IMG/VR virus record: IMGVR_UViG_3300042565_000981 | Span: 1-24,415 of that record | DNA from: a virus | Direction: 5' to 3' (one strand) | DNA: 24,415 nucleotides | In this document: positions 1,654-20,667 of the stretch, one piece after another | Layout of the letters: every line of letters begins with the position of its first letter | How positions within the stretch are numbered: position 1 is the stretch's first letter | The notes under the pieces: generated by a model | What the model saw: the letters and a program-made list of their open reading frames with translations, nothing else | Database searches by the model: none | What the model was told of the DNA's origin: nothing | Made by a program: the position numbers and the translations under genes

Positions 1654-3480
1654 ATGGAAATTCTCTTTGGCATTGAGCACCTTCCGACTTTGGAGGGTGC
1701 GACCACTGTTGCATTTGACGTTGAGACCACCGGGCTCCAGCCGACTTTTGGAGGGCTGCGGCTGCTCCAGTTGGCGACGTATGGGAAGACGCCGGTGGTC
1801 ATTGACTGTTTTCAGCTGGACGACAACGACTGGATTGACCTGGAGGAGTTCTTCAGTGTTGAGCGCCGGTGGATCGCGCACAACGCTGTTTTTGATCTCG
1901 GGTGGCTCCAGGAGTATGAGATTTATCCGGCGGGCACGGTTCTTTGCACCATGCTGTCTAGCCGGGTGCTGACTAATGGGATGCCCAACCTCAAGCATGG
2001 TCTGCAGCATGTGGTGCGGCGGTATCTGAAGCTGGACATCTCGAAGGAGCAGCAGCGCAGCGACTGGTCGGGTGATCTGACTAGGGATCAGATGGAGTAT
2101 GCCGCCAATGACGTGGTGGTTCTAACCGCACTGGAGCGGGAAATTGCTGAGCGGATGGCGATTGGGGGGCTGTACCCTGCGTGGTATCTGGAATGCAATG
2201 CGCTCCAGGCGATGGCGCAGCTGTGGAGGACCGGGCTACCGTTCAACAAAAAAGCGCTGGAGCAGTTGATCGAGGATCTGGACATTGAGCATAAGGAAGT
2301 GGGGGATAAGTTCATCGAGGATTTTGATGCCGCGTTACCTAAGAATTTCAAGCTGTACCGGGGGATTGACGGGCGACTGAAGTTCCAGACAAAGCCGGGG
2401 CCGAAGGGTAAAAAGCCGGATCCCCAAGTGTTTAACCTCAACAGTCCGGCGCAGCTGTTGGCCAAGTTTTCGGCTTTGCTAGGGCAGGCGCCAGTCGATC
2501 CAAAGACGAATAAGCCGAGTGCTAGTCGTGCTGCGCTGCAGGAGTATGTGGGCGATCATAGGATTATCGCGGATTATCTGCGCTGGAAGAAAGTAGAAAA
2601 GCGGCGACAGATGGCAGAGACGTTGTTAAAGAATGTGGCGAACGATGGGTATATTCGCGCCAGCTATTTGCAGATGGGAGCTGATACGGGGCGTATGTCG
2701 TGCATGTCGCCAAATCTCCAGCAGATTCCTAGGGACCAGCGGTTTAGGGCTTGTGTGCAGGCTCCAGCGGGGTGGAAGTTTGTGGTGGCGGACTTCGCGC
2801 AGATGGAGCTGCGGCTGGCGGCGGCAGAAGCTCAAGATGAGCTTATGACTCGGGCGTTCCAGGAGGGGAAAGACTTGCATACGATTACAGCGATGCAGAT
2901 TTATGGGGTTAGTGAGGATGAAGTTACAAAAGAACAGAGGCAAATTAGTAAATCAGCCAACTTCGGATTGTTGTATGGAAGCGGTGCAAAAGGGCTCAGG
3001 AATTATGCGGCAACAATGGGAATCCAGATGGATCTTGATGAGGCGGCGGAAGTCAGGCAGAAGTTCCATGCTGCATATAAAGGGATCAGCAAATGGCAGC
3101 GTACAAATGCTGCACTTGCTGATGCGCCTGCGAAGAATCCATCTGTCGCCATCCGTGTTTCGGGGCTCCGGCGGTTTCTTCCGGGAGAGAATAACAAGCT
3201 CACCACGCGCTGCAATACTCCCATCCAGGGAGCTGGTGCAGCCGTGCTCAAACTTACGCTCAGCAAGTTGTGGCCTGCCCTTAGATCCGACACAGAAGAA
3301 GTTGTGCGCTTGGCCGGCGTGGTGCATGACGAAATCATTTTGCTCGTCGTAGAGGAACACACGGAGGTCTGGGCGCACCAGCTCCAGGCAGTGATGCAGG
3401 ATGCAGAGGCTCGGTGGTTGGGGGAGATTCCGCCGCTGGCTGAGGCTAAGGTCGGGGATAGCTGGGATCAGGCCAAGTAA
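1654..3480 (+). CDS. polA: Family A DNA polymerase with 3'-5' exonuclease
   Basis: 608 aa replicative polymerase of the Pol I family. The N-terminal exonuclease (about 15-165) shows Exo I FDVETTGL (D22, E24), Exo II HNAVFDLGWL (D81) and Exo III YAANDVVVL (Y149, D153), a DEDDy set. The polymerase domain (about 180-608) has TGRMSCMSPNLQQIP (345-359), motif A VVADFAQMELRLAA (D380, E385), motif B RQISKSANFGLLYG (R429, K433, F437, Y441) and motif C VVHDEI (H558, D559). All catalytic residues are present. Phe437 aligns with E. coli Phe762, a position known to affect dideoxynucleotide discrimination and used to sort viral PolA types. No 5' nuclease domain is present, as is usual for phage enzymes. 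An in-frame stop at 1645 fixes 1654 as the first good ATG. The stop overlaps the next start (TAATG). Confidence 0.96.
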   Translation: MEILFGIEHLPTLEGATTVAFDVETTGLQPTFGGLRLLQLATYGKTPVVIDCFQLDDNDWIDLEEFFSVERRWIAHNAVFDLGWLQEYEIYPAGTVLCTMLSSRVLTNGMPNLKHGLQHVVRRYLKLDISKEQQRSDWSGDLTRDQMEYAANDVVVLTALEREIAERMAIGGLYPAWYLECNALQAMAQLWRTGLPFNKKALEQLIEDLDIEHKEVGDKFIEDFDAALPKNFKLYRGIDGRLKFQTKPGPKGKKPDPQVFNLNSPAQLLAKFSALLGQAPVDPKTNKPSASRAALQEYVGDHRIIADYLRWKKVEKRRQMAETLLKNVANDGYIRASYLQMGADTGRMSCMSPNLQQIPRDQRFRACVQAPAGWKFVVADFAQMELRLAAAEAQDELMTRAFQEGKDLHTITAMQIYGVSEDEVTKEQRQISKSANFGLLYGSGAKGLRNYAATMGIQMDLDEAAEVRQKFHAAYKGISKWQRTNAALADAPAKNPSVAIRVSGLRRFLPGENNKLTTRCNTPIQGAGAAVLKLTLSKLWPALRSDTEEVVRLAGVVHDEIILLVVEEHTEVWAHQLQAVMQDAEARWLGEIPPLAEAKVGDSWDQAK

Positions 3481-5104: not shown

Positions 5105-6232
5105 CTACTTGGGGCGGACTTTGATGAACCAGCCGGTGTCGTTGCCATCGACGAGCCAGCGAGGCAGCCAGTTCTTGCGGGAGTATGGGATTTTTGCGCC
5201 GCCTTTGTGGCTCACGTAGCCACCGTTTACCAAGTTGGCCTCGCCGTTCGGGTCGTTGAAGACGAAGTGCGTGGGGGTGAAGCCGATGACGACGCTCCAG
5301 TGGCCGCTGCCGGTGGGATTGGAGGCGGTGCCGTGGTGGAGCCAGCCGACCGGGACGGGGTGGCCGCCGATGATCTCGTTTTCGAGGTCTTCGGCAGTGC
5401 CGTCCATCTCAAAAGTGGCGGTAAGGCCCAGCGCTTTGAGGGCAGCGAGCTGGGCCTTAGGGTCGGTGGTATCTCCGAAGCGGGCGCGGAGTTTGTTGTA
5501 TTCGTAGTCGCCCGAGATTTTTCCGTAGTAGCGGGCCACCATGGCGCAGCTTGAACTAAAGCACTGGCGATAACCAGTGGCGCCATCGTCAGGGCCTAGC
5601 TGGTATTCATAAGGAACTTTGAGGATTTTTTCCTGCGGCTTGATGGCCGGATTAGTTCCAGCGTGCTGATCCATCAGGGCGATCAGTTTGCCCGCGTAGT
5701 TGGGGTCTGTTGCGTATCCTTCTTTGACCAGCCACTTAGCGGCTTCTTCGCGGTTGACTGCGTTGTTGCAACCTTTGTATTGTTTGTAGTCTTTGTACCA
5801 GTGGTCTACAAGGTATATGACGCAGGAGAGAAGATCGGGAAAGTCAATAAAGCTGTCGGTAATAGTGATCCACTGGTTATTGATGAACTCTTGGGTTTTG
5901 GTGTTGGTGCCGGTGCCTTTGAGGCCGAAGAAGTTGTTGCGGCCGGAGACGATTTTGCCGTAGCCGGATTCCAGGGCCCACTGGGCGGCGACCAGTTCGG
6001 GGAATTTGGCGCCAGCGACGCGGGCGGCTTCTAGAACACCTTCCCATGTATTGGGGAAGTTGGTTTGTTTGCCTGCAACGCTCCAGGTTTTGAACCAGCC
6101 CCGGTCGCGGTTTAGCAGGGTCGGGTCTGCCTTGAGGAGGGCTTGCTCCAGTTCGGTGATGGCCGCGAGCTGGTGAGGGAGGCCCTTGTAGAAGCGGAAT
6201 AAATCCGCCAGGCGGACGGGAGTCGAGGCCAT
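5105..6232 (-). CDS. Two-domain endolysin: glucosaminidase plus C39-like peptidase
   Basis: 375 aa. Residues about 60-190 resemble the glucosaminidase (FlgJ/LytG-like) fold: VAAQWALESGYGK holds the likely catalytic Glu88, followed by NNFFGLKG (99-106), a YLVDHWYKDY segment, and a GYATDPNYAGKLIALMDQ end typical of this family. Residues about 204-375 resemble C39-like cysteine peptidases: Gln223-Cys224 in YRQCFSSSCAMVARYYG, His311 in GHWSVVIGF and Asp327 in FNDPNG complete a Cys-His-Asp triad. Together the domains would cut the glycan chain and a peptide bond of the wall. There is no signal peptide, so a holin would have to release it. It lies among small putative lysis genes. A virion-associated role in wall penetration is an alternative because the tail genes lie directly upstream. 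Confidence 0.82.
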   Translation of the reverse strand: MASTPVRLADLFRFYKGLPHQLAAITELEQALLKADPTLLNRDRGWFKTWSVAGKQTNFPNTWEGVLEAARVAGAKFPELVAAQWALESGYGKIVSGRNNFFGLKGTGTNTKTQEFINNQWITITDSFIDFPDLLSCVIYLVDHWYKDYKQYKGCNNAVNREEAAKWLVKEGYATDPNYAGKLIALMDQHAGTNPAIKPQEKILKVPYEYQLGPDDGATGYRQCFSSSCAMVARYYGKISGDYEYNKLRARFGDTTDPKAQLAALKALGLTATFEMDGTAEDLENEIIGGHPVPVGWLHHGTASNPTGSGHWSVVIGFTPTHFVFNDPNGEANLVNGGYVSHKGGAKIPYSRKNWLPRWLVDGNDTGWFIKVRPK

Positions 6233-7391: not shown

Positions 7392-9586
7392 GCCGTACCA
7401 CAGACAAGGTAGGCAACACGGTGGGTTTTGTTGGCCATTCCAGAAGTAGAACTGTACCTAATTTTGACCGAATTGACTGTCAAGAAGTCTAAATCAATGG
7501 CGGGAAGGTTGTAACCAATGGTATCAGCAGTGTCCGCATCGTTAAATTGCACTTGGATAAAAGGATCAACAGTGCTTAGCAGACCACTAGGCCAAGTAAC
7601 GGTAGCTTCGCGGTTACTATCTGTGGTTAGCAGATTTTGACCCATGATGAACACTTTGCCGTATTCGTCACAAGTAATACGGGCGTCGCCGGTGTTGTAA
7701 GAAAGGGCGTGCGTTTGACTAAAGCAGTTTGTCGCCCCAGCCTGTCTGGTGAAGATAGCTGGCTGGTTTGTGTATGTTGCCAAGACTGTTGCAAGCTCTT
7801 TGATGTTGCTGCTTTGCGACCCCACGTACATGCCGCCGCTGATATCGGCACTGGCCAGTTCTTGAATTGTCCAGCGCGTGGAGTCAATCACGCAGCTTTT
7901 GTTCGTCATCCCGGTCGTGCCGTTTGCAAAATTGAAACAGTATCCTTTGGTGCCCGAATAGCCGGAGATGGCGCCGACCGTAAAGAACACCACAAGTTCC
8001 GAACCTTTTGTAACTACGTTTTCGCAGTTAACGAACTTGAGCAGGTCGTAGTTGATGTTTTCCCCGGTAGGGACATTGCCCTTCTCGCCGCCATTGAAGA
8101 GGAACGTGCCGCCTTCAATACTTACGTTACTTACACCTGCTAGGTCAAAAGCGTAACCACTCAGCTCGGCGTTGCAGTTAATGAATTTGAACGACAGTCC
8201 TTTTTGTGATGTGTTTGTAGATCGCCAGATGTTATTCGTGTGGCTGCAGAAATGGTGTCCGCCGGCTTCGACCGAATCGAATACAATGCCCTCCAGGCCG
8301 TGCGTTTCGTCGGCAGTGATGACTTCTTGCTGCTCAGAACAAAGTTCAATGGCCTTTGCCCAGTAGTTCAACTGCATGTTCTTGAACTTGGAGTTGTAAG
8401 CACCGTCTACAGCTCCAGACGTGCCGGTTGCTTGGGATGAGTAAGTTGTCAGCTTTATGGCAACGCAATCGGTCGGTGGCCTTTCCGCGAAACTGTTTCG
8501 GCCAAGCATGGTGACGTTTGACCAATAGACACCCGTGGGGCCATAGATAATTGCACCACGGTTCCAGCCGTTACTGCCATTAGCGTTCCAGCCCATAACA
8601 AGAACGTCGTTCCATGTAGACGTGTATGGGCCGTTGCCTTCTAGGGCAATTACAAATGCTGTGCCGCCTTTGATGTCGGCTGTGCCGCCTGGAAGCTGTC
8701 CAGCCTTGACGGCGATGCCTTCTATGCTGATCGCCCTGGCGTAACTTGGAGTAATAAACCCCGTCTGCTGCGCTGGGGTAGTTGTGCCGCTTGCAACTGC
8801 AAAAGTAAATACAGTTGGGGATACCACGACGATCGTCTTTGGTCCCAAGAAAGCTTTAGGTAGAGCAGAAACAGGGCCTTTATTCAGTGGTAGGGAAATG
8901 GTACTGCTACTAAAACCGTGTGCATAAGTGCACGTGACTGTGCAGGTTGTACCAGCGACCGAAACGGTTACGGGATTGTAGTTGTGCTCAATGCCGTTAG
9001 CAGATGCGGTTGACTGTACGATTGTGGAGTGGAGTGAACCGTCTCCGATAATTTTGAAAGCTGGACCGGCCTTACCTGTACGCAGCGGAGACGTAATTCG
9101 ATAGGTGCCGGAAGGGATGTAAAGGGCTTTTTCGGCGGTGGCGGCTGCGTCGATTGCTAGCTGCAGGGCAGCTGTGTCATCCGTCGTGCTATTGCCTGCG
9201 GCACCAAAATCTTTAGCGTTGACCGAATCCTTCAGTCTGCTATCAATCGTTCTGGCAACAGCTCCTGTACCAGCCTGTGTAAATGACAGTTTGCTAGCAA
9301 CGATACCGGCACTTGCATTGACATCAGCATTAACAATGCTGCCGATGCCGGCCTGCAAATTAGCCGTATCCAGCTGGCCAATCGTGATCCAGGCGTTATT
9401 CGCTGCGTTGCGCTGCTTCAGCGTTGCGGGGCTGGTGCTGGTGTCAACCCAGTATTGGTAGGCGAAGGTGGTGCTAGGGGCCGATGCGCCACTGTTCTGG
9501 CTAACGATCGCAGCTAGTGCGTTGTTCAGGTCACCACGAAACGCCTGGCCAGACTGGTTGGCGATGTTGTAGTCGTGCTGAGCCAT
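7388..9586 (-). CDS. Tail fibre/spike with pectate-lyase-like beta-helix
   Basis: 732 aa. The N-terminal part (1-115) is a typical virion-attachment region: NNALAAIVSQNSG (21-33), YQYWVDTSTSPATLKQRNAA (43-62) and a linker. At about 121-170, SVNAKDFGAAGNSTTDDTAA leading to LQLAIDAA and ALYIPSGTYRI is the signature of the pectate-lyase-3/GDSL-spike right-handed beta-helix; the following 400 residues (many GNxF, IEGG, FVNCEN rungs) fit such a helix. The C-terminus (about 640-732) is a beta-rich domain ending in VAYLVCGTA. Such proteins bind or cut surface polysaccharide. It follows the J homologue directly (TGATG overlap), where lambda-like phages keep side-tail-fibre genes. No obvious C-terminal self-cleaving chaperone. 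Confidence 0.87.
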   Translation of the reverse strand: MAQHDYNIANQSGQAFRGDLNNALAAIVSQNSGASAPSTTFAYQYWVDTSTSPATLKQRNAANNAWITIGQLDTANLQAGIGSIVNADVNASAGIVASKLSFTQAGTGAVARTIDSRLKDSVNAKDFGAAGNSTTDDTAALQLAIDAAATAEKALYIPSGTYRITSPLRTGKAGPAFKIIGDGSLHSTIVQSTASANGIEHNYNPVTVSVAGTTCTVTCTYAHGFSSSTISLPLNKGPVSALPKAFLGPKTIVVVSPTVFTFAVASGTTTPAQQTGFITPSYARAISIEGIAVKAGQLPGGTADIKGGTAFVIALEGNGPYTSTWNDVLVMGWNANGSNGWNRGAIIYGPTGVYWSNVTMLGRNSFAERPPTDCVAIKLTTYSSQATGTSGAVDGAYNSKFKNMQLNYWAKAIELCSEQQEVITADETHGLEGIVFDSVEAGGHHFCSHTNNIWRSTNTSQKGLSFKFINCNAELSGYAFDLAGVSNVSIEGGTFLFNGGEKGNVPTGENINYDLLKFVNCENVVTKGSELVVFFTVGAISGYSGTKGYCFNFANGTTGMTNKSCVIDSTRWTIQELASADISGGMYVGSQSSNIKELATVLATYTNQPAIFTRQAGATNCFSQTHALSYNTGDARITCDEYGKVFIMGQNLLTTDSNREATVTWPSGLLSTVDPFIQVQFNDADTADTIGYNLPAIDLDFLTVNSVKIRYSSTSGMANKTHRVAYLVCGTA

Positions 9587-12500
9587 CAGATAATCTCCCG
9601 GCCGTAGCCGATGGCAGTGTAGGTGAACTGGCGGCTCACAGCGGTGCCGGCACTGTCCCTAAAGGTTACTTGGAATCCAGTGCGTGTCACGGTAGCTACT
9701 GAGAAGTAGTCGCCTGTGCCCATGTTGAAGCCGGTTACTCCGATGCTGGGGGCTTCATAGAAGGCATTGGCGAAAGTAACCGAGTAAGTGCCAGCGCCGC
9801 TGGTCAGCGTGGCTGATTGCTCAGTTCGTTGCTGCAGTTCGACCACGCAGCCGAGTTCGTCAATCAGGATGTTCACTGATGGGTCGCTGCTGCTGGCGAT
9901 CGTTTTGAACTGGAAGCCTTGGCCGCGAACGATGGCGTTGGCAAATTCGCGCCAGCTGCTCCAGGTCGGGGTTCCTGCCGGGTTGTCCTGGGTAGAACGC
10001 ACGTAAAGTGTGGCATTCACCGAGTCAAGGTTGCCTTCATCAATAAGCGACCACGAATCTATCAGCTCTGATTTATCGTCCCAGAGGCCGTTGACGAGAT
10101 AGGCACGTGTTAATAGTCTGCGTTGCAGGTTTACGTCAAACACGCCACCCATATCCAAGGTTGAGCCGAACTCATACTCACCCGAATTGAGCACACTACC
10201 CACGCTGTCGATTGTAGTTAAACTGTCCCATAAACCCATATCATCGACAAGCGTTCCGGTGCTTATGGTAAGCGCATCTAAATCTGCGCTGTAAAACATA
10301 TCGATAGAGTTACCGTTGAATGGCGGGGTTTCTTGGTCTTCAGCGTAAGTTTGAACAAGAAAGCGAGGTAGCGGCGTAGGCAAGTCCGCCACTATTAAGG
10401 TCGCGTTCAATGATTTACGCCCACCGTCATCCTCAAACTTAAGTAGGTATGTTCCCTCCAGTAGCGGAACTTGCTTTTGCGTTTGATTACCTGATGCCGC
10501 TGGTACGATCTCGATGCTATTTTCCCACGTAACGCCCGTAAGATTTGGCGTGTGGCGGATTAGTACCTTACCCCCGATTTTAACGTCAAGCTCCGTAGAT
10601 GCCTCCCAGCTGATGATGGCACTGGCTTGGTCGATGGGGACTAGCGATACGCCAGTAACGTCAGCTGGTAGCCCGGTTTTTCCGACTACATTGAATGAGA
10701 GCTGCGCTGGCAGCACCGAAGATTTAAGGCCCGCATTAACGCTATATACTTCTACTTCGTAAATCCCCGGCGTAGTATCAAAAATTTCAAGATCTAAACG
10801 CGATTGTACATTTGTTTGCCAGTTACCGTATTTGACACGCCAACGATAACGGTACTGATTTATGCCAGATACAGCCTGCCATGTAACTAGCAGTTTGGAG
10901 AGCGCACGACCGTTGTTTTCGTAAAGCGTTTCGACGGCCTGCAGGTTGCTGGGTGCCGGTGGGATCTCGTTTAGATCGGTAATATCACGTTCTGTAAGTG
11001 CCCGACCACGTTCGATGTAGTCATATTTTGATGCGTTGTACGCCAACGCAGTGACCTGGTACTGTGTTTGGTCTTGCTCGGTTACGCTAAGTACACGCCA
11101 AGTAGAGGACTGTAGGTTTGATGTTTGGTAAATCCAGACACTATTAGGGTTAGGTGCGGCCGGAAAGGCTGAATCTAGCGTAAGTACGGGTCCAACAATA
11201 CTTACTACTGTGCGTGAAGCAACCGTACCGTCTGGCAAAATTACCGACAATGCGCCACCGACTGGCGTTAGGTCAACTGTATTGTCCACGGTTACTGTAT
11301 TTGTTGTCGCCGTTTTAAGCCGTCCGCCACGACGAGTGCCGGAGCGTACTGGATCACTGATTTCAATGATCTGGCCAGGGCGTACCAGCAAACCGGCGTC
11401 AACTGAGGCAGTAAAACTTACTACTTCAGACTCGTTTTGTTCGGAATACAGTAGCCATTCACCGATTCTTCCGGCTTGACTACGGCTAGTGCAAGCAAAG
11501 GCTGATATTTCGGTGGTTACAACACCGTACTTGGCAATCGCTGCTTGGTCTTCAACTACTTCGCGGGCAATATCACGCAGACTCAGATCAAGATAACTAA
11601 CGATTACAACTGTTGGCCTAGTTTTCAGGCTGCCGCCGGAGTAGCTGAAACCTTCCTCTGACACGTTGGCCAGCGTGAACAGGTAGGCAGGGTCACTGGG
11701 CTTGTCTTGGCTGATCGTTAGTGCGCCAGTGCTCCAGTAGGGCATCGCCCGGAAAGTGGAGCATAGGTCATTGATCAGCTTGTAGGCTTCCTCTTGCGTC
11801 TGGATGTTGATATTGCAGGAGAAGCGTGGTTCGGTACCACCAAAGCCGTCTGGTACCAGCTCGTTGGCGTACTGACTGGCGGAATAAAATGCCCACTTGT
11901 CAAGACGGGAGGCGCTACCAGTAAAGCTTTGCTTTTCTTGGTCGGTAAGTATATGATCACCGAAGCCGTAGCGGGTTGAGGTGAGTAAATCCCAGAGCAC
12001 CATCGCAGGATCACTGCACCATTGAGCAGCTTTCCAGGTGCCGTCCCACGTACCTGTGTAGATCAATCGCCCGGTAGTCGAGTCAACAGTGGCATTGGAG
12101 GGGATGCGGATTTTTATGCCACGAACTAAGTACGAACGACGTGGAATTGAATTGAACTGTTCGGCACCTATGCGTAGGCCAACTAGGGCGCTGTTAGGGT
12201 AACGCAGTTTTGCGTACACAATTTCAGTGTAACTAAGCCAACTAAAGGCGTTAACAATTTTAGAAGACGCGCCTCCTACATCTTGTTCAGAATTATCATT
12301 CGTGATGCGTGTAAGCTTGATATTGACTGGTTTAGCGCCCTGTAGATTTACTAGGTACTCGCGTTGATAGGCGTCGGCAGTTCGCCCGTTAACTGTATCA
12401 TCTATTGCGACTGTGTACCCGCCTCCGGCGTATTGAACTGAAATCTGAAATCTAAAAACGCTACCGACAATATCCCCTTGGTCGGTAAATCTTTGCAGAG

Positions 12501-12906
12501 CAGGAATGTTTATTGTTACACGAACTGCATCGACCGTTATGTCTGAAATGGTACGGACTACCGGAGTTGATTGCTCTACAACAACGCCAACGCCGATCTC
12601 ATCTTCAACTTCTGAGAATCCTGGAATCGCTGGCTGTTCTTGCGTACCATTGCGAGCGTACGCAATAACATTGTTAAAGTTGTAAATACCGTCTTCACCT
12701 TGAAGCGGGGTATTATCGATGAAAATTGATTTTGCGCCGTTCTTTAGTCCCTCAATTTCTCCTTCGCTGATTAAGTCAATTATGCTTGCGTACTGCGTTG
12801 AATTGAGGCCGTCGGCGGCTTCCGTAGGTGAATAGGTGGCTTGACTACCTCCGCCTCCCTTGCCCCCGCCACCAGCACTTCCACCAGCACCAACAATCCG
12901 TTTCAT
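9586..12906 (-). CDS. J: Tail tip host-specificity protein (gpJ-like)
   Basis: 1106 aa, close to lambda J (1132 aa). The N-terminus [20 protein letters not shown] followed by TYSPTEAADGLNSTQYA and IDLISEGEIEGL is the classic gpJ opening. The N-terminal 600 residues make the tail hub and tip (for example WDLLTSTRYGFGD, INDLCSTFRAMPYW, EVVSFTASVDAGLLVRPGQ). Two fibronectin-type-III-like domains follow at about 650-850 (IPPAPSNLQAVETL; LPADVTGVSLVPID). The last 80 residues (QSATLTSGAGTYSVTFANAF ... IGYGREII) are a beta-rich tip that probably contacts the host receptor. It starts in an ATGA overlap with the I homologue and ends in TGATG with the fibre. Confidence 0.93.
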   Translation of the reverse strand: MKRIVGAGGSAGGGGKGGGGSQATYSPTEAADGLNSTQYASIIDLISEGEIEGLKNGAKSIFIDNTPLQGEDGIYNFNNVIAYARNGTQEQPAIPGFSEVEDEIGVGVVVEQSTPVVRTISDITVDAVRVTINIPALQRFTDQGDIVGSVFRFQISVQYAGGGYTVAIDDTVNGRTADAYQREYLVNLQGAKPVNIKLTRITNDNSEQDVGGASSKIVNAFSWLSYTEIVYAKLRYPNSALVGLRIGAEQFNSIPRRSYLVRGIKIRIPSNATVDSTTGRLIYTGTWDGTWKAAQWCSDPAMVLWDLLTSTRYGFGDHILTDQEKQSFTGSASRLDKWAFYSASQYANELVPDGFGGTEPRFSCNINIQTQEEAYKLINDLCSTFRAMPYWSTGALTISQDKPSDPAYLFTLANVSEEGFSYSGGSLKTRPTVVIVSYLDLSLRDIAREVVEDQAAIAKYGVVTTEISAFACTSRSQAGRIGEWLLYSEQNESEVVSFTASVDAGLLVRPGQIIEISDPVRSGTRRGGRLKTATTNTVTVDNTVDLTPVGGALSVILPDGTVASRTVVSIVGPVLTLDSAFPAAPNPNSVWIYQTSNLQSSTWRVLSVTEQDQTQYQVTALAYNASKYDYIERGRALTERDITDLNEIPPAPSNLQAVETLYENNGRALSKLLVTWQAVSGINQYRYRWRVKYGNWQTNVQSRLDLEIFDTTPGIYEVEVYSVNAGLKSSVLPAQLSFNVVGKTGLPADVTGVSLVPIDQASAIISWEASTELDVKIGGKVLIRHTPNLTGVTWENSIEIVPAASGNQTQKQVPLLEGTYLLKFEDDGGRKSLNATLIVADLPTPLPRFLVQTYAEDQETPPFNGNSIDMFYSADLDALTISTGTLVDDMGLWDSLTTIDSVGSVLNSGEYEFGSTLDMGGVFDVNLQRRLLTRAYLVNGLWDDKSELIDSWSLIDEGNLDSVNATLYVRSTQDNPAGTPTWSSWREFANAIVRGQGFQFKTIASSSDPSVNILIDELGCVVELQQRTEQSATLTSGAGTYSVTFANAFYEAPSIGVTGFNMGTGDYFSVATVTRTGFQVTFRDSAGTAVSRQFTYTAIGYGREII

Positions 12907-13505
12907 CCGGTTACCTGCACGGTATCGGTGCCCGCTGAGATCACAATAGATCCCACTAAGGTTTCACCATAGACAATCGGCACCGGAGTACCCTGACGAC
13001 TTGTGTTCTGGATACCACTGAAGCTATAAGACTTGCGTGGATCGTTAGGCGAATCGGTACCTAGGGAGAGGCGGGGTGTGGGGGTAATTAGTTGTGAAAC
13101 GCCGCCAAGGATGAGGCTGGCGCCGATGCTTCCGATACCAAGAGCTAGCGACGAAAATTGAGTGCCGAAAATTGTGGCGGCAACGCCGCCGCCAAGGCCG
13201 GGGAGTGCAATAGCCAAGGCCACTAATGCCACTCCCGCGATGATTCGGCCCGTGGCACCGGCACCAGTCACAACGGGAACGAATTTTATGATCTGCCCAC
13301 CGGCGGGGTCGTGCAGCTCGTCTTCACCGAGGTCGTAGTCGCCAAGACTTACGCGGTAGTGCTGGTCCGCCATGTGACGTTCCAGGTCTGGCCAGTTGGC
13401 GAGCAGGAAGCGTACGGCCTCGGCGGCGCTGCTTACGTCGGCTTCAAGCACACGCTTGCCGATGAACTTCGCCAGGCGTCCGTAGAGCTTGATCTTACGC
13501 AGCAT
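12903..13505 (-). CDS. I: Tail assembly protein (gpI-like)
   Basis: 200 aa. The N-terminal 80 residues are a ubiquitin-like domain ([45 protein letters not shown]) as in lambda I. Two Gly/Ala-rich hydrophobic segments follow (about 87-105 and 115-142), then a conserved C-terminus with [21 protein letters not shown] and [12 protein letters not shown], which occurs in I-type proteins next to J. Lambda I is needed for assembly of the tail tip but is not clearly found in the virion. It overlaps K by 11 nt and J by 4 nt. Confidence 0.88.
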
Positions 13506-14196
13506 GGCGAAGTCTCCTTCCCGTGCATTTTAGTAGCCATCCGCCGTAGAGGTCACGGCTGCTGAGGCGGCCTTGGAGATGGTGGAGCAGGAGCTGGTCG
13601 CCAAGGTAAACGCCGACATGGTTGAGGCCGGTGCTATTGATTGCCATGAGTATGGCGTCACCGGGTTGCAGCTCCTCGTCGTCGCGTAACTCGCGGAAAC
13701 CTGTGTCGCGCCAGCAGGCATCGAACATCGGGTCTAGGCGGAAGCTTTCTGCGTGCAGGGGGCGCTGCCAATCGCGTAAGTGGATGCCCTGTTCGGCGTA
13801 GTAGTCGCGTACCAGTGTCCAGCAGTCCGTTATGCCCCAGACCCACTGGCGGCCGACGAGCGGGGCAGTGTAGCCTTCAGGCTTGCATTCGCCCCACGTT
13901 TCGGTTTTGGGGTTGACGACGTACCAAGGGAGATTCGTTTTTTCGCAGGCCAGACGGTCCGCCTGGGACGGGAAGGGAGGCGTGGTTGGGTGACTGTGGA
14001 TGATTGCAGTGATCTCGCCCGCATCCTCGGCAGCGGCGTAGTCGGCGGGATCGAGGGCGAAAAATTCGTCTGGATCTGTTGCCAAGTTCTTACAGGGCCA
14101 GTAATGATCGCGGCCTTTTACGACGACCAACAGGCCGCACGCCTCTTTAGGGTCTTCCGCCTTGGCGTGCGTTAATGCTGCATCGCGCCAGGGCAT
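13495..14196 (-). CDS. K: Tail tip peptidase (gpK-like, JAMM plus NlpC/P60)
   Basis: 233 aa from the ATG at 14196, preceded by a good Shine-Dalgarno-like AAGGTGG and 10 nt after the L stop; a longer frame to 14268 would overlap L. The N-terminal domain (1-110) is a JAMM/MPN metalloprotease fold: Glu18 in PKEACGLL and [15 protein letters not shown] with His67, His69, Ser77 and Asp80. The C-terminal domain (about 115-233) is NlpC/P60: Cys125 in [12 protein letters not shown], His193 in LNHVGVYLG and His205 as likely third residue. Both active sites look intact. In lambda K is part of tail tip assembly; the P60 domain may open peptidoglycan during infection. Confidence 0.92.
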
Positions 14197-14206
14197 GTCA
14201 ACCACC

Positions 14207-15250
14207 TTACGCGAAGAACGCTCCAATGCCAGGGAATGAGCCGAACGGAAGCTCCGCAGTTGCTCCAAAGCGTGCCTTGCAACTGCTCAGCCGCTTACCG
14301 CAAACATCGAGCACCTGACTGTTCACACCTTGATCAGATTCGTCGAAATAAACAACGCTGTTTAGATAAGGGTAAGTGGATAAGTAGTAAGTGGCATTAA
14401 ACCCGCCCCCGGTATTACCTTGGCGTCCTTCCCATATTCCATAGTCGCGGTAGTGCTGGTTTGCAGTAGAAAGAGTATAAAGAGCCGCGACGTCTGGATA
14501 GGTTGCCAGATAGTATGTTGCGTCGAACTGCCCCGTGCTGTTGATGTTCAGATTTTCTGTGTAACCAAATGCGACGTAGTGCTCGCGTAATGGCCTTGCT
14601 GCGGGACCGGTCGGGGTGTAACCGCATTCAGCTGACTTGTAGACCCACTGGCAGATGTTGCTGATGCACTGGCGCTTTGGTGCGCGAACGCCGGCTAGGT
14701 CAAATGCCGCGCATAGCTCTAGCTCAACAATGTCGCGTGTTTCAACAGACTTACGGTCCACGTAATAGATTTCACGCGGAAACTCAGCTGTTGGATCTGG
14801 GGTGCCGTAAGGGTTGACATTACCGGGAAAGTTGGCGGCGTCCAGGTAACGGGCTAACGTGCGGATGCGCGTGACCTTGGCGCCTTCAAGCCCTCTGGGT
14901 AATCCCAGCATGATGGCTGTGATTGTGCCCATGATGTTGCTACAGCGGATCCGTGGTCGCGGCAGCGTGCCCTTGCCTTCGTAGGAGAAACCATCGGCTT
15001 CTACTGGAAACTGTAGATAGGTGTTACCGACCCAAATGACCTCACCGCTATTGTTTAGGTTGGTGCCGGCGTGGAAACGGTAAATATCGGCGGCGCCGTG
15101 TTGTAGTACGTTGAGTTGTAGTTCAAATAGCTCGATGACAGCGCTGGGCGCTGCTAGTTGTACTTCAGTTTCAAGTTGATAAAAGCCGTCACCCTCGGCG
15201 TAGCCGGTGTCCCAGTATCCAGGGACAACATACGGGGTGGTGACGGCCAT
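14207..15250 (-). CDS. L: Minor tail protein gpL-like with insert in the Fe-S loop
   Basis: 347 aa against 232 in lambda L. Residues 1-210 follow the L family ([45 protein letters not shown]). Fe-S ligands are recognisable as Cys200 and Cys209 ([13 protein letters not shown]) and Cys317 and Cys324 ([15 protein letters not shown]). The 9- and 7-residue spacings match those I recall for lambda Cys173/182 and 205/212, but the gap between pairs is 108 rather than 23 residues. The extra segment has one full [13 protein letters not shown]...[11 protein letters not shown] unit (242-276) and a partial [11 protein letters not shown] copy (284-293). gpL forms the tail tip hub and, in lambda, binds an Fe4S4 cluster. 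Confidence 0.9.
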
Positions 15251-15256
15251 TGTTTA

Positions 15257-15565
15257 TCAAGCCCAGGGGAGGCCGGATGCCTTGCTCGGCGCGTGCTGTT
15301 CATCCAGCTGCGCTTGCAAAGCAGCTTCAATCTCTGCGACCTTTTCCTCGGTCAGCTTGTCTTTGACCCAGCCGATCAGGATTTCAGGGGTCAGGTCGGA
15401 GAATGGAGTCATGTCGCCTTCAGGGCGCTCAAGGCCAATAGATCCGTAGGCGCCGGCTGAGTATGTGTCGTCTTTGGCGTCCACCGTGTAGTGGACCGCA
15501 AACACGAAACCATCAGCGGTCTCCCGCTCAAGGTTGGCGATGTTCCAAGTGAAGGTGGCGGTCAT
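15257..15565 (-). CDS. Small conserved cyanophage-type protein next to fibre gene
   Basis: 102 aa: MTATFTWNIANLERETADGF, then HYTVDAKDD, YGSIGLERPEGDMTPFSDL and a helical TPEILIGWVKDKLTEEKVAE segment ending in AALQAQLDEQHAPS. The N-terminal half is probably a beta-sandwich; the C-terminal half is helical. From memory, proteins starting with TFTWxIxNLER and containing VIGWVK near the C-terminus sit next to fibre or tail genes in cyanophages, with no established role. A fibre-associated or chaperone role is inference from position. It starts 25 nt after the repetitive fibre gene, has GGAG upstream as a possible Shine-Dalgarno, and ends 6 nt before L. Confidence 0.68.
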   Translation of the reverse strand: MTATFTWNIANLERETADGFVFAVHYTVDAKDDTYSAGAYGSIGLERPEGDMTPFSDLTPEILIGWVKDKLTEEKVAEIEAALQAQLDEQHAPSKASGLPWA

Positions 15566-15590
15566 TGAGGAAGAATCTCCGTTGGTGAGG

Positions 15591-17696
15591 TCAGGTCAAA
15601 CGGTAGGTGACCCATGTGGTCGCTGCCGTTCTGCGGGAAAGGAAGCGCTGTGAGTTGTTGGCAGCAACAGTACCGGAGCCCACGACGGTGTGGCCGGCGC
15701 CGCCTTGGACTGTCACAGCGTTTGTGGCGCCTGTGTTGATGACGCTCCACTCAAAGGCCATGTTGTTGTAGAGGCCGAAGAAACCGCCATCCATCAGTGT
15801 GCCAGTGGGCAGTGTCATTGTGACAGCTGCAGCAGTGGATGAGGTGATGATCTTGGCAGTGAGGTTGGCGACCGTCAGTGTGGCGGTGGTGTCTACGGCT
15901 GCCGGTGCGGGCTGGTTGTAGATGACGGTGCCGCCGTTGGAGATGCGGAGTTGCTCAGTAGCCGATGAAGCACCATCAGCAGTAGTACTGAACACCAAAC
16001 GGGCTGGCATGTCGTTGGTGCCGGGGGTGCCGTCTACTTGGGCGCGAATATTGGCGCCGTTTGTCATGTTTGCGCCGTCGTAGCCGCTAAAAGTAAAATC
16101 TCCTAGGTTATCGTCGGCAGCGACAATGGTGGGGGATGCGCCGGTCCCACGTCCTTTTTGAAGATGGAGTCTAGAGCTATTACTGTCCGCCGCCCATCTC
16201 GTAATTGACTGGGCAGCTTCTGCATCTGATTCAATTTGCAAAAGTGAATTAAAACTATTGGTACCAATGCGCGAGGGCCTGTTACTACTCGTCCCCACCA
16301 GCAGCCTGCCCGAGGAGTCGATGCGGGCGCGTTCAATCGTCGGATTTAGAAAAACAATGCTGCCGTTATTAGTACCAATGTATGAACTATTAGCTGAATC
16401 AGTAAATTGTACATACGATCCGGTGCCTGTTGATAATGTCTGGATTGAAGTATCTGCACTTGAGCTAACACTTAAGGTCCTGCCAGGATTTGTGATGCCA
16501 ATCCCTACGTTGCCGTTGGAACTAATCCGCATCCGCTCAGTAGGCGATGCGGCCCCATCGGCCGTGGTTTTAAAGACCAAACGACCCGGCAAATCAGTGG
16601 TGTCACCGCCACTAAATGGCGTACCATCAACCAAAGCCTCTATAGATGCTGCGATATTGCTCAGGTCAGTGCCATTTGCACCAGCAAAAACAATGCTGCC
16701 CAAGACGTCATCTGCTACTACAGCCGTTGAACCACCGATTACGCCAGCGCGAGATTTTGCTAAGACAAAGAAAGGCCCTGAGGGATCAGCTTTATTTCCT
16801 ACTGCTGTGAACGAAGCAATGTCGACAGTTTCAAAAAGTACCTGATTTGTCGTAGCCCCGAAGTTACCCCCGGCTGCGCGGGTGCTACTCGTCCCCACCA
16901 GTAGCCTGCCGGAGCTGTCGATGCGGGCTTGTTCTGCTCCATTTATTTGAGCGATAAAAGGTGCTGTTGCTGCAGCAGAATTTAGCGTGGTTGTGCCTGC
17001 GCTGCTGATAATAAGTCTTGATACTCTCCGATCAGTTGAACGGTCGCCAGCGGGCGTTGTAGCAATAATGGCGCTGGATCCGCCAGTGGTTAAATGCTCT
17101 ATAAATAAATGGCCATCTATTGTGCCCAAATTATTACTAGCATCAAAAAAGCTAGTGGTTGTAGCAACAGAGCTGTCGTTGTCATTTCTAACGTTAATAC
17201 CCGCAAAAGTGGAGGCTTGTTGTATTCTGCACGTTCCATTAACATTTAACGTCGAAGCAGGGCTACCCGTGCCAATCCCCACCCTCCCACTGGAATTAAT
17301 CCGCATCCGCTCAGCGCCACCCGTGCTCAGCGCCAGCTGGTCCGCGCCGGGGCTGTAGATGCCGGTGTTGGGGTCGCTTACGAAGCTCCACGCCGGTGCC
17401 GCAGCAGTGCCGAGGCTGACAGCCTCGACCTGGCCGGCGGCGTCAATCCGCAGCCGCTCAGTGCCGCCCGTCGTGACCGATAGCTGGTCCGCGCTTGGGG
17501 AGAACAGGCCGGTGTTCAGGTCGCCCGTGATCGTGACCGAAGGCGCTGCAGCAGTCCCGGCTGCCACCTTCACCTGCCCAGTGAACGTCGGCGCGGCGGT
17601 TTCCGCCTTGTCCGTGTTCAGGTTGGTGAAGTTGGCATCAACCTCCGCGTGGGTCAGAGGTGTACCTTTTGCAGCGCGGGTGGTGATGCTTGCCAT
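15591..17696 (-). CDS. Repetitive tail fibre inserted between M and L
   Basis: 701 aa. The N-terminus MASITTRAAKGTPLTHAEVDANF followed by TNLNTDKAE is a usual fibre start. The body consists of recurring beta units: GLFSPSADQLSVTTGGTERL, GIYSPGADQLALSTGGAERM, ARIDSSGRLLVGTSS (three times), RISSNGNVGIGITNP and RISNGGTVIYN. These are typical of trimeric fibres of siphoviruses and myoviruses. The C-terminus ends with AVTVQGGAGHTVVGSGTVAAN, NSQRFLSRRTAATTWVTYRLT. No peptidase S74 chaperone is seen. Placement inside the M-L pair, instead of after J, is unusual. The unit starts 23 nt after the M stop, and a weak promoter-like TAGACT lies 20 nt before its ATG. Confidence 0.82.
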   Translation of the reverse strand: MASITTRAAKGTPLTHAEVDANFTNLNTDKAETAAPTFTGQVKVAAGTAAAPSVTITGDLNTGLFSPSADQLSVTTGGTERLRIDAAGQVEAVSLGTAAAPAWSFVSDPNTGIYSPGADQLALSTGGAERMRINSSGRVGIGTGSPASTLNVNGTCRIQQASTFAGINVRNDNDSSVATTTSFFDASNNLGTIDGHLFIEHLTTGGSSAIIATTPAGDRSTDRRVSRLIISSAGTTTLNSAAATAPFIAQINGAEQARIDSSGRLLVGTSSTRAAGGNFGATTNQVLFETVDIASFTAVGNKADPSGPFFVLAKSRAGVIGGSTAVVADDVLGSIVFAGANGTDLSNIAASIEALVDGTPFSGGDTTDLPGRLVFKTTADGAASPTERMRISSNGNVGIGITNPGRTLSVSSSADTSIQTLSTGTGSYVQFTDSANSSYIGTNNGSIVFLNPTIERARIDSSGRLLVGTSSNRPSRIGTNSFNSLLQIESDAEAAQSITRWAADSNSSRLHLQKGRGTGASPTIVAADDNLGDFTFSGYDGANMTNGANIRAQVDGTPGTNDMPARLVFSTTADGASSATEQLRISNGGTVIYNQPAPAAVDTTATLTVANLTAKIITSSTAAAVTMTLPTGTLMDGGFFGLYNNMAFEWSVINTGATNAVTVQGGAGHTVVGSGTVAANNSQRFLSRRTAATTWVTYRLT
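16285..16328. repeat. Fibre internal direct repeat, copy 1
   Basis: 44-nt segment starting CTACTCGTCCCCACCAG; the copy at 16885-16928 lies exactly 600 nt (200 codons) away with about four mismatches. It encodes the RIDSSGRLLVGTSS unit of the fibre. Confidence 0.7.
16885..16928. repeat. Fibre internal direct repeat, copy 2
   Basis: Second copy of the 16285-16328 segment, 600 nt apart and in the same reading frame. A possible site of recombination that lengthens or shortens the fibre. Confidence 0.7.
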
Positions 17697-17716: not shown

Positions 17717-17722
17717 AGTCTA
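17717..17722 (-). promoter_or_regulatory. Weak -10-like element (TAGACT) before fibre gene
   Basis: TAGACT on the minus strand lies 20 nt before the ATG at 17696 and includes the TAG stop of M. It lacks the GC before the TA, so only spacing and the ACT end support it. Confidence 0.22.
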
Positions 17723-18061
17723 AGGCTCGAACACTTGCTTAAATGTCACTTCAATTTTGCTGCGCTCAAACTCAAATAGTTCACGGGTCCAGGTAGGGCA
17801 GATCCACCTGTAGCTGGTTGTTTCGTTTGGTGGCGTCCACCCAAAAGAATCCGCATCTGCGGCACGCGCATCTAGGAATGCTTCAATGATGTCGGCATCA
17901 TCGTCGCTAACGCTAAAAGAAAGCCGCCATTCTTTCGGGTTTTGATTGAGCCCAAAGGTGATGCGCTGTTGGTAACCGTCCCCGAATTGTGCAGTGCGTA
18001 CCTTAGGCTGGCTGGTCTTTGCGGCCGAGTATGTCGGCTTGTAGCTGGGGAAGTCGGCCAT
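17720..18061 (-). CDS. M: Minor tail protein gpM-like
   Basis: 113 aa, close to lambda M (109 aa). It has MADFPSYKPTYSAAKTSQPK, VRTAQFGDGYQQRITFGLN (the family's FGDGYxQR motif), PKEWRLSFSVS, ADIIEAFLDARAADADSFGW and the end FERSKIEVTFKQVFEP. This is the phage minor tail protein M family, which in lambda forms a ring at the tail tip next to L. It starts with a TAATG overlap with the tape measure stop, as expected from the lambda H-M order. Confidence 0.92.
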   Translation of the reverse strand: MADFPSYKPTYSAAKTSQPKVRTAQFGDGYQQRITFGLNQNPKEWRLSFSVSDDDADIIEAFLDARAADADSFGWTPPNETTSYRWICPTWTRELFEFERSKIEVTFKQVFEP

Positions 18062-20667
18062 TACACCAGTAAACCTCCGGGGCGTTTTTGTTTGATGAGT
18101 TCCTGCTGGACTGCGGCGGCGATGACGCGACCCAGCTGGTTGCCCTGTTGATCGTCGCCCTGTACTTTACTGCCGCTGGCATCGACGTTCACTACGACAC
18201 TGGTGCTGCCGCCGCCCAGCTTGTTGTTAGGCACGATAGTGCCGCTACGGCCAGGCACAAATAGTTCGGGGCCGCGTTCGCCAACGATGTAGGGCGAGCC
18301 ACTGGTTACAGGGCCGCCGGCAGCTCGCCTACCTAAACCGCCCGTAAGGAAGCTGAAGAAACCCTTACCATCGTCGCCTGCAAGTAAACCAAGGCCGGCT
18401 TGGAAGAGGACGTTGGCCAAGGCATTAAGTGCGTTAGTCAGACTATCTGCCCAGCTATCTGTGCTGAAAATGAGTTGCTGGAATACATCGCCAGTCGTTT
18501 GCCCGACTTGGTTGATGGTGTCTTGGATTTGCTTTTGAAGGCTGACTTGCCGTTCAAGTTTCTGGTTTAGTTCGTCGGCTACTTCTACAGTGTTGCGGGC
18601 ATCTTCCGCTGAAACGCCTTGCCTAATGAGATCGTCGATGGCAAGCTGGAGTGTGTATTCACGCTCTTTACCTTGCAGTTTTGCAGCGAGCAGGTTGACT
18701 TCTGCCTGGGCTTGTCCGAGCGGATCGTCACTGCCCATAAACTTTTTGATGTTATCCTGCATCAACTTATTTGCTTTTTCTTCTGCGTCTACGAGTTTAA
18801 GTTGTAAGTTTAGAGAAATGCTTTTCGCTTGGAAGCGGAGCTTTTCCAGTTCATTTACTTTTGCTTGTGCGGGAAGTTCTTTGTTAGCCAAGATGTCATT
18901 TCCTTTGCTACGAATTTCTAGAAGGTCTAGTTGTGCTTGGCGTGTAAGTTCCAGTGCGGTGTTTTCCTCTTTGCGTGCAGTAATTAGACGTTGTTCGATC
19001 TTGAAAGCTTCCTTTGCTACATCAAGACTTCTTCCGCTTTTAGCGATAAGCTCCGCAGCCCTTTCTGCCTCCTTGCGTGCTTTGTCTGAAGACTTGTCGG
19101 CTTTTCCCGGTAGTTGCCCCAAGCCTGAGACGTCAATTCGTTTGATGGGCGCGGGCGTTTGGAGGGTGCCCATAGCCTTGCTGCGGAGCTGGTTGTAGCG
19201 ATTGAGTTGCTCGGGGGTTAGCTGACCGGTCGCTCCAACGGCAAGGGTGTTGTTTTGTACTAGGGCTTTGCCTGCGCGGCCGCCCATGCGCTGGGAGCGG
19301 AGTTCGGGGAACTCTTTGACGAGTTGGGCGCCGGCCATGGCGGAGGCGGCGACGTCTGTTTGGCTGCCGCCGCTAATCATCCGGGCAACGGCTTGGACGC
19401 CTTGGGCGGCGAGGTTGATGATGCCGGCGATCTTTCCGGCGAGCCACTCCAGTGCCGGAGAAAGCGCGGTGACGATTGCCCCAGCGAGTTGTTGGAAGGC
19501 GCCGCCGAGATCTTTGGTTGCGGTGCTTAGTTGGGTGAAGCCGTTGCTGGTTTTGGTGGCGGCAGTTACGCCCTGATTACCAACTTCGACGAGGGTGTCG
19601 GTCAAGTCTTGGACGGAGATTTTGCCGTCCTTGGCCATTTGCAGCAGGGCGCTGCGGCTGACGTTGTATTTGTCCGCCAAGGCCTGTTGGATTGGGATGC
19701 CTTGGCTGGTTAGTTGGTTGAGAGTGGCTTGAGATACCTTGCCGGATTCGAGGGCTGAGGTAAAAGCGTTGGTGACTTTATCAATGGTGCCACCGTATTT
19801 TTCGGTGAGCGTGCTGACGAGTTTGATGGCTTCGGCTTGGGCGTCGATTTCGAGTCCCAGGCCGCGAATGTTCTGGACGGATGCTTGGAACTTGTCGAAT
19901 TCGCGGCCGGCTTGTTTGAAGGCTGTTTCGAGCGTGCGCGTTTGCTCGGCGGAGAAGCCGATGTCTTGGCCCAGCTGTTTGACTACGTTGCCTTTGGCGG
20001 CGATGTCGCCAAGGATGGTGCCGACGAGGCTGCCGGCAAAACTGCCGCCTGGTCCGAGCAGTCCGCCGGCCAGACCGCCGATGGCGCCACCGGCAGCTGC
20101 TCCAGCGCTTTGGCCGAACAGCAGCGGGAAGGCACCACCGATTGCCGCGCCGCTAACGGCGCCACCAAGCCGGCTGGCGAGTCTGCCACCTCTTCCGCCA
20201 GCGGCGGCGCGTAAAGCTGCGGGCGATCCGGGCATGTTGACTGTACCGCCGATAGGGGATGCGGGGCCTCTGCCGGGACGAATGGGTGCGGCCTGCGGGC
20301 CTTGGATACCAAAACCAGCATCCGCAGTCGCTTGTACGCGGCGGCGATTAGCTACTTCTTGAGCGATTAAACGCTCTCTACGCGCTCGGGCGTTATTTTC
20401 TAGTTCGATCGCAGTAACAAGTGCTTTTACCGCAAGAGTTTCCTGTTGTGTGCCAGCTGCAGCTCGGTTAAGTGCGCTGGTGGCTTTGTTTACAGCACGG
20501 CTATAGTTTTCCATGCTAGCTACATTAAAACCGCGCCCTTCAAGTAACTTTGCGTTTCTATTGACTACGTTAATAGAATTGTTTAACCTGTTTACACCTT
20601 TAATAAGGCCGTCAATTTGACGCCCGCCGCGCACAGCAATCTCAATGTCGGCGGTGTATTTGGCCAC
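18061..20667 (-). CDS. H: Tape measure protein (gpH-like)
   Basis: 868 aa from a GTG start. Residues 1-115 are helical. A Gly/Ala-rich hydrophobic part at about 165-225 (GGAVSGAAIGGAFPLLFGQS, GLLGPGGSFAGSLVGTILGD) is the region that tape measures are thought to insert into the host membrane. Residues 295-365 (NAFTSALESGKVSQATLNQL, IPIQQALADKYNVS, GKISVQDLTDTL) match the conserved tape-measure N-terminal domain. A charged coiled coil covers about 530-720. The C-terminus has SGSPYIVGERGPELFVPG and SGTIVPNN, typical of tape measures. At about 0.15 nm per residue it predicts a tail near 130 nm. No Shine-Dalgarno is clear; a -10-like TAAACT lies 22 nt upstream, after a terminator. Confidence 0.94.
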   Translation of the reverse strand: MAKYTADIEIAVRGGRQIDGLIKGVNRLNNSINVVNRNAKLLEGRGFNVASMENYSRAVNKATSALNRAAAGTQQETLAVKALVTAIELENNARARRERLIAQEVANRRRVQATADAGFGIQGPQAAPIRPGRGPASPIGGTVNMPGSPAALRAAAGGRGGRLASRLGGAVSGAAIGGAFPLLFGQSAGAAAGGAIGGLAGGLLGPGGSFAGSLVGTILGDIAAKGNVVKQLGQDIGFSAEQTRTLETAFKQAGREFDKFQASVQNIRGLGLEIDAQAEAIKLVSTLTEKYGGTIDKVTNAFTSALESGKVSQATLNQLTSQGIPIQQALADKYNVSRSALLQMAKDGKISVQDLTDTLVEVGNQGVTAATKTSNGFTQLSTATKDLGGAFQQLAGAIVTALSPALEWLAGKIAGIINLAAQGVQAVARMISGGSQTDVAASAMAGAQLVKEFPELRSQRMGGRAGKALVQNNTLAVGATGQLTPEQLNRYNQLRSKAMGTLQTPAPIKRIDVSGLGQLPGKADKSSDKARKEAERAAELIAKSGRSLDVAKEAFKIEQRLITARKEENTALELTRQAQLDLLEIRSKGNDILANKELPAQAKVNELEKLRFQAKSISLNLQLKLVDAEEKANKLMQDNIKKFMGSDDPLGQAQAEVNLLAAKLQGKEREYTLQLAIDDLIRQGVSAEDARNTVEVADELNQKLERQVSLQKQIQDTINQVGQTTGDVFQQLIFSTDSWADSLTNALNALANVLFQAGLGLLAGDDGKGFFSFLTGGLGRRAAGGPVTSGSPYIVGERGPELFVPGRSGTIVPNNKLGGGSTSVVVNVDASGSKVQGDDQQGNQLGRVIAAAVQQELIKQKRPGGLLV

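Follow-up and report, generated by a model that had tools for sequence, protein, structure and literature searches.

What is already known about domain insertion into the tail tip? The gpL hub protein, its Fe-S domain and the insertion of domains into tail-tip proteins are all established. In phage lambda, gpL (PF05100/TIGR01600, PDB 8iyk) combines an HDI domain with an Fe-S domain that lies at the outer surface of the tail tip, and its cluster cysteines are Cys173, 182, 205 and 212, with a middle distance of 23 (PMC10721106). In the skunaviruses, adding the insertion of an evolved Dit restored infection and adsorption on an exopolysaccharide-bearing host (PMC10688798). A 2026 study of the LSH1/Jersey hub described the C-terminal region of gpL as hypervariable and as presumably near the cell wall (PMC13243795). 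Finally, the gpL of cultured Synechococcus phage S-CBS4, gp36, is annotated only as a phage tail protein or minor tail protein, and we find in it an insert in the loop between the cysteine pairs.

The gpL homologue described here shares with lambda gpL the HDI and Fe-S domains, the cysteine spacings of 9 and 7 and the M-L-K-I-J gene order; it differs in having 85 extra loop residues and in the DUF7936 and fibre-like genes that stand between M and L. Like evolved Dit, it carries a foreign domain in a tail-tip structural protein, with a patchy distribution among close relatives. However, the carrier is the Fe-S domain of the gpL hub, the gpM-type distal tail protein (17720-18061) being separate, and the module is an unnamed, predicted helical repeat that matches no carbohydrate-binding module in Pfam, NCBIfam, PHROGs or the PDB. 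As in the LSH1/Jersey hub, the C-terminal domain is the place of variation, presumably near the cell wall, but there the fold is lost or changed, whereas here an intact Fe-S domain bears exchangeable inserts. S-CBS4 gp36 uses the same cysteine loop, and its 260-residue loop differs in consisting of coiled-coil-like arms with an unrelated middle.

The window, by which we mean the whole stretch of DNA analysed, is a 24,415-base IMG/VR virus record. Among cultured phages, window positions 12000-16000 have DNA matches only to Synechococcus phages (67-73% identity), and the host is therefore likely a picocyanobacterium of the Synechococcus type. The tail operon lies on the minus strand in the lambda order, comprising tape measure, gpM, a fibre-like gene, DUF7936, L, K, I, J and a tailspike (Table 1). 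The C-terminus of the gpJ homologue has a tail-fibre/lectin-like match that is weak and below the cut-off, and the tailspike is encoded by a separate gene. The fibre-like gene stands in an unusual place, between gpM and L. Near its start (approximately 17439-17669) it is 96-97% identical to relatives L019 and L022, against 70-88% in the surroundings, which suggests a recent exchange.

Table 1. Features of the tail gene cluster and of the gpL homologue in the window
Feature	Position	Strand	Evidence or remark
Tape measure	18061-20667	minus	
gpM homologue (gpM-type distal tail protein)	17720-18061	minus	PF05939, E 3e-27
Fibre-like protein, 701 residues	15591-17696	minus	phrog_18345, phrog_9942
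DUF7936 protein adjoining L	15257-15565	minus	PF25590, E 2e-34
gpL homologue, tail-tip hub protein, 347 aa	14207-15250	minus	PF05100, TIGR01600, 8iyk_L fold match
HDI tube-like beta-sandwich domain, approximately residues 30-190	14681-15163	minus	AlphaFold2 model; alignment of hub/tube proteins from other phages
First Fe-S cysteine pair, C200 and C209	14624-14653	minus	invariant in 54 aligned gpL
Insert, residues 212-299	14354-14617	minus	replaces a few residues of a 22-residue loop; net +85
Repeat unit 1, R219-Y258	14477-14596	minus	internal alignment and bacterial profile
Repeat unit 2, S261-Y301	14348-14470	minus	internal alignment and bacterial profile
Second Fe-S cysteine pair, C317 and C324	14279-14302	minus	invariant in 54 aligned gpL
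gpK homologue (JAB + NlpC/P60)	13495-14268	minus	true start probably an ATG inside the ORF
gpI homologue (tail assembly protein)	12903-13505	minus	phrog_32, E 2e-46
gpJ homologue (central tail fibre)	9586-12906	minus	phrog_31, E 2e-235; GpJ FNIII-A

An earlier sequence-only reading of this DNA had taken the ORF at 14207-15250 for a gpL homologue, and this is upheld by matches to PF05100 (Phage_tail_L; E 9.3e-52), phrog_18 (E 4e-75) and TIGR01600 (E 4.1e-61, 206 bits against a cut-off of 71). The cysteine spacings it gave are likewise correct, as C200, C209, C317 and C324 lie 9, 108 and 7 residues apart. In the nearest relatives that lack an insert, L019 and L022, 22 residues separate the cysteine pairs, which is the lambda distance, and the net difference of 85 residues agrees with the insert of about 85 residues first described. 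A 22-residue loop is also found in 81 of 83 more distant gpL proteins, a sample that favours insert-free proteins since its matches were ranked by E-value; the survey of L proteins in other phages thus indicates that a normal L keeps a short loop. The invariance of the four cysteines across the 54 aligned gpL proteins holds for those with and those without the insert, and on the strength of these ligand cysteines we assign a putative [4Fe-4S] cluster to the window protein. At its other end, the window gpL has an N-terminal extension (15185-15250, minus strand) that is common to L019, L022, L025, L039, L064 and L078 and absent from the gpL of many close relatives.

What is the insert? It had been described as one full and one partial repeat unit; we correct this to two full units of the YYL-YPDV / HY-G-EGR type, read in the register HY..G..E(G/N)-F.A.YYL..YP. 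The first half-unit was probably overlooked because the EGR of unit 1 reads as a degenerate TEN in the window phage; it is EGR in L087 and L090. Alignment of unit 1 with unit 2 gives a score of 80, compared with a mean of 23 for shuffled sequences, and none of 5000 shuffles scored as high. Furthermore, a profile built from bacterial copies only matches residues 224-295 (E 1.9e-12) and matched no other ORF in the window. The repeat is therefore not a chance resemblance. A circular permutation of the repeat was considered because the insert begins and ends mid-motif; it was set aside, as two whole units in the HY-EGR-F-YYL register describe the insert better. Pfam, PHROGs and NCBIfam, searched with the insert alone, returned no family, and a PDB sequence search, run with a profile that combined repeats from phages and bacteria, gave only a chance match (E 0.87). 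In the literature searched, outside which stands the Tam 2013 paper on the gpL Fe-S cluster, neither modules between the gpL Fe-S ligands nor the EGR repeat as a phage tip domain have been described, and a search with the motif string was also empty.

The insert is predicted to fold on its own. A whole-chain AlphaFold2 monomer model built from an alignment of 54 sequences (mean pLDDT 81, pTM 0.50) replaced an earlier model from a shallow alignment, in which the core was poor (mean pLDDT 57). In the later model the pLDDT is approximately 94-98 in the insert and mostly 75-93 in the core, the linker at residues 187-195 is of low confidence, and how the domains are oriented to each other is uncertain, as the pTM indicates. 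The model matches lambda gpL (8iyk_L) with a Z score of 17.3 over 217 of its 232 residues; the rmsd of 11.2 presumably reflects a differing orientation of the two domains. Since nearly all of lambda gpL is aligned, the match leaves no room for the insert, which the model places outside the normal L core as a separate fold. This fold is predicted to be helical with short strands, which does not fit an Ig-like phage decoration domain with its beta-sandwich. Fold searches were run with the whole chain, and the match lists were filled by the gpL core and so are uninformative on the insert's own fold.

Where else does the repeat occur? When bacterial genomes were scanned, it turned up in a giant Methylobacterium protein of secreted type, which has six HY-EGR motifs, and in a protein of glycosyltransferase type from a Beijerinckiaceae. 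Among the tandem arrays, L102 has six HY-EGR motifs and L106 is similar. A two-unit consensus matched 142 plasmid records, mostly from alphaproteobacteria, with annotations that include M10 metallopeptidase, calcium-binding, Ig-like, glycosyltransferase, GH99-like and rhamnan synthesis F proteins, and a cyanobacterial copy lies in an RTX protein of Trichormus. The module is thus of bacterial type, as had been proposed, and the earlier statement that its motif occurs in secreted or surface proteins of cyanobacteria and other bacteria is confirmed by the RTX and M10 proteins and by Trichormus. The phage and bacterial copies share the F-YYL-DV and HY-G-E-R anchors; the bacterial repeats often form longer tandem arrays, whereas the phage insert stops at exactly two units, has a longer linker and follows a YYLxTYP consensus. 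Among viral loci, the gpL-type insert itself is in gpL in all 23 that were found. At least one EGR unit is also present in other phage or prophage proteins (L369, L370, L371, L372, L375, L378 and L380); judged by eye, L369 and L370 resemble internal virion proteins, the proteins of L375 and L380 are larger, and two further proteins with repeat units are oxygenase-like (L383) and methyltransferase-like (L384).

The loop is variable in content among relatives. A natural pair with and without the insert is L087 and L037, which align as two colinear blocks with 85% and 88.5% DNA identity over 4983 and 4976 bases flanking the loop and with a single gap, a net difference of 255 bases, at the loop itself; the aligned part of J is unchanged between them. 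Other relatives fill the same loop with one to three HGL-type beta modules (L020, L032, L059), with coiled-coil-like arms of approximately 180 residues (L065, L111, L114, L257), or with coiled-coil arms of 245-275 residues that enclose a middle part, as in S-CBS4. One beta insert in the loop weakly resembles an endosialidase beta-barrel, below the Pfam cut-off, and in some relatives the cysteine loop is only 8 residues long. A second site, after the second cysteine pair, holds approximately 230-250 residues in about 20 sequences, several of which are cut by contig ends. On a tree of the N-terminal core, the nine dereplicated EGR-bearing gpL proteins fall into more than one clade (AU p 0.0004; eight changes), although the tree was built quickly, many of its forks are weak, and gain is indistinguishable from loss on it. 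The frequency of inserts within the clade is also skewed by the choice of queries.

Several of these relatives show further variation. The second-site inserts (L043, L068, L225, L234 and others) consist of GTxVSS-type repeats and are probably beta. The gpL of L100 (2889-4370) has two insertions, EGR repeats in the cysteine loop and approximately 170 residues in the HDI domain at NFP/NPYG. At that HDI site, the gpL of L109 (3977 onwards, Marine virus AG-345-A17) has a cupredoxin-like stretch, HPLRIKSDA...YYCSTHGNSMG, and it appears to be without most of the Fe-S domain; L109 is a possible chimera, since it is a single-cell amplified record. The gpL of L246 (2492-3427) carries a C-terminal lectin domain of the mannose type (monocot-agglutinin-like), beyond the second cysteine pair, and that of L244 (2105-3169) has N-terminal mannose-type lectin repeats with a QxDxNxVxY-type motif. 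Both lectin domains lie outside the cysteine loop and below Pfam's own cut-off, although the PDB match of L246 is strong (1jpc agglutinin, E 2e-15).

The pattern of substitutions indicates that the insert is under purifying selection. In pairs drawn from the window phage, L087, L085, L088 and L090, synonymous differences are 0.55-0.99 per site, which is near saturation and makes dN/dS ratios unreliable, so that only the contrast between synonymous and non-synonymous differences was used. Non-synonymous differences are 0.04-0.16 in the insert in most pairs and 0.11-0.19 in the core, and only in the window-L087 pair is the insert above the core. Among close relatives the insert is conserved at least as well as the core, and between L085, L087 and L088 it is not hypervariable; L101 is more divergent in the insert, with non-synonymous differences of 0.33-0.37. 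In L087, L085 and L088 the insert has a lower third-position GC than the core, a difference that L090 and L100 do not show.

We propose, as the reading we consider somewhat better than even, that the Fe-S loop of gpL is an exchangeable display site and that the module it displays here serves accessory adsorption by way of cyanobacterial surface polysaccharide. In this lambda-type hub, a two-repeat module with its own predicted fold sits between the cysteine pairs of the C-terminal Fe-S domain, and with three gpL copies the tail tip would be ringed by three modules on its outer side, an outward position that we infer from lambda gpL. The modules might make weak contacts with cyanobacterial surface polysaccharide and so hold the tail near the envelope, after which gpJ would engage its receptor, in analogy to evolved Dit insertions. 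Both the glycan binding and the part in adsorption are inferred. They are favoured by the occurrence of the repeat in secreted RTX/M10 proteins and in polysaccharide glycosyltransferases, and a sugar is the leading guess for the ligand, given the lectin domains that sister gpL proteins carry. Against adhesion count the conservation of the insert and the position of those lectin domains elsewhere in gpL. Moreover, since the repeat also occurs in cytoplasmic-type glycosyltransferases and in other phage proteins, glycan binding is not required. More speculatively, the YYL-PDV/EGR repeat could be a new glycan-binding family, spanning bacterial secreted, polysaccharide-building and virion proteins, with the gpL Fe-S loop of cyanophages as a dedicated cassette site where such modules are exchanged to track changes of the host envelope; we hold this to be possible but doubtful.

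Could the module instead be the primary receptor-binding domain that decides host range? The sequence-only reading had suggested a receptor-binding module displayed at the tip. In favour of such a module are its bacterial type, its separate predicted fold and the outer location of the carrier domain in lambda; the main host-range role fits less well, and we regard it as improbable. The likely outer position and the presence/absence polymorphism would suit it, but the phage has both a gpJ with its weak, sub-threshold lectin-like C-terminus and a separate tailspike, relatives with an empty loop are common, and the insert is not hypervariable in close relatives. An insert that is conserved, that is missing in near relatives although the aligned part of J is unchanged, and whose units recur singly in other phage proteins fits better an accessory adhesion role against a constant ligand. 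Conservation would also suit a purely structural decoration, in which the module binds no host molecule and either lends stability to the gpL-gpJ cone or keeps it apart from the fibres next to it, as would a helical repeat with no recognised ligand that recurs in other phage proteins. However, relatives with 85-88% identical surroundings manage without the insert and unrelated sequences fill the loop, which implies that the tip needs no such support, and we consider this explanation unlikely, if the least so of the alternatives.

The location of the insert exactly between ligand pairs whose cysteines are invariant raises the further idea that it modifies how accessible or how strained the [4Fe-4S] cluster is and, by this route, adjusts what triggers the tip to open. 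A tuned mechanical role is hard to reconcile with a place where loop length ranges from 8 to 275 residues and unrelated sequences occur, and we give this idea little credence. Smaller still is the chance that the insert is a neutral passenger, a tolerated loop without function: frequent presence/absence changes on the core tree and the lower third-position GC of some inserts point that way, but strong purifying selection over a saturated synonymous distance and the confident predicted fold point the other.

The adhesion-site proposal, which we continue to favour, would flag a likely point of attachment in cyanophages, whose receptors are mostly unknown. More generally, the Fe-S domain in these phages accommodates complete folded modules right between the cluster ligands and swaps them repeatedly, which points to a role for it as a surface scaffold, and the natural pairs with and without an insert allow this role to be tested. 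For the EGR repeat, unnamed and widespread among bacteria, the tail tip provides a context in which to search for a ligand. Finally, we note that the window also encodes an endolysin with glucosaminidase and C39-like peptidase domains (5105-6232) and, on the plus strand, a ThyX-type thymidylate synthase (504-1157) and a family A DNA polymerase (1654-3480).
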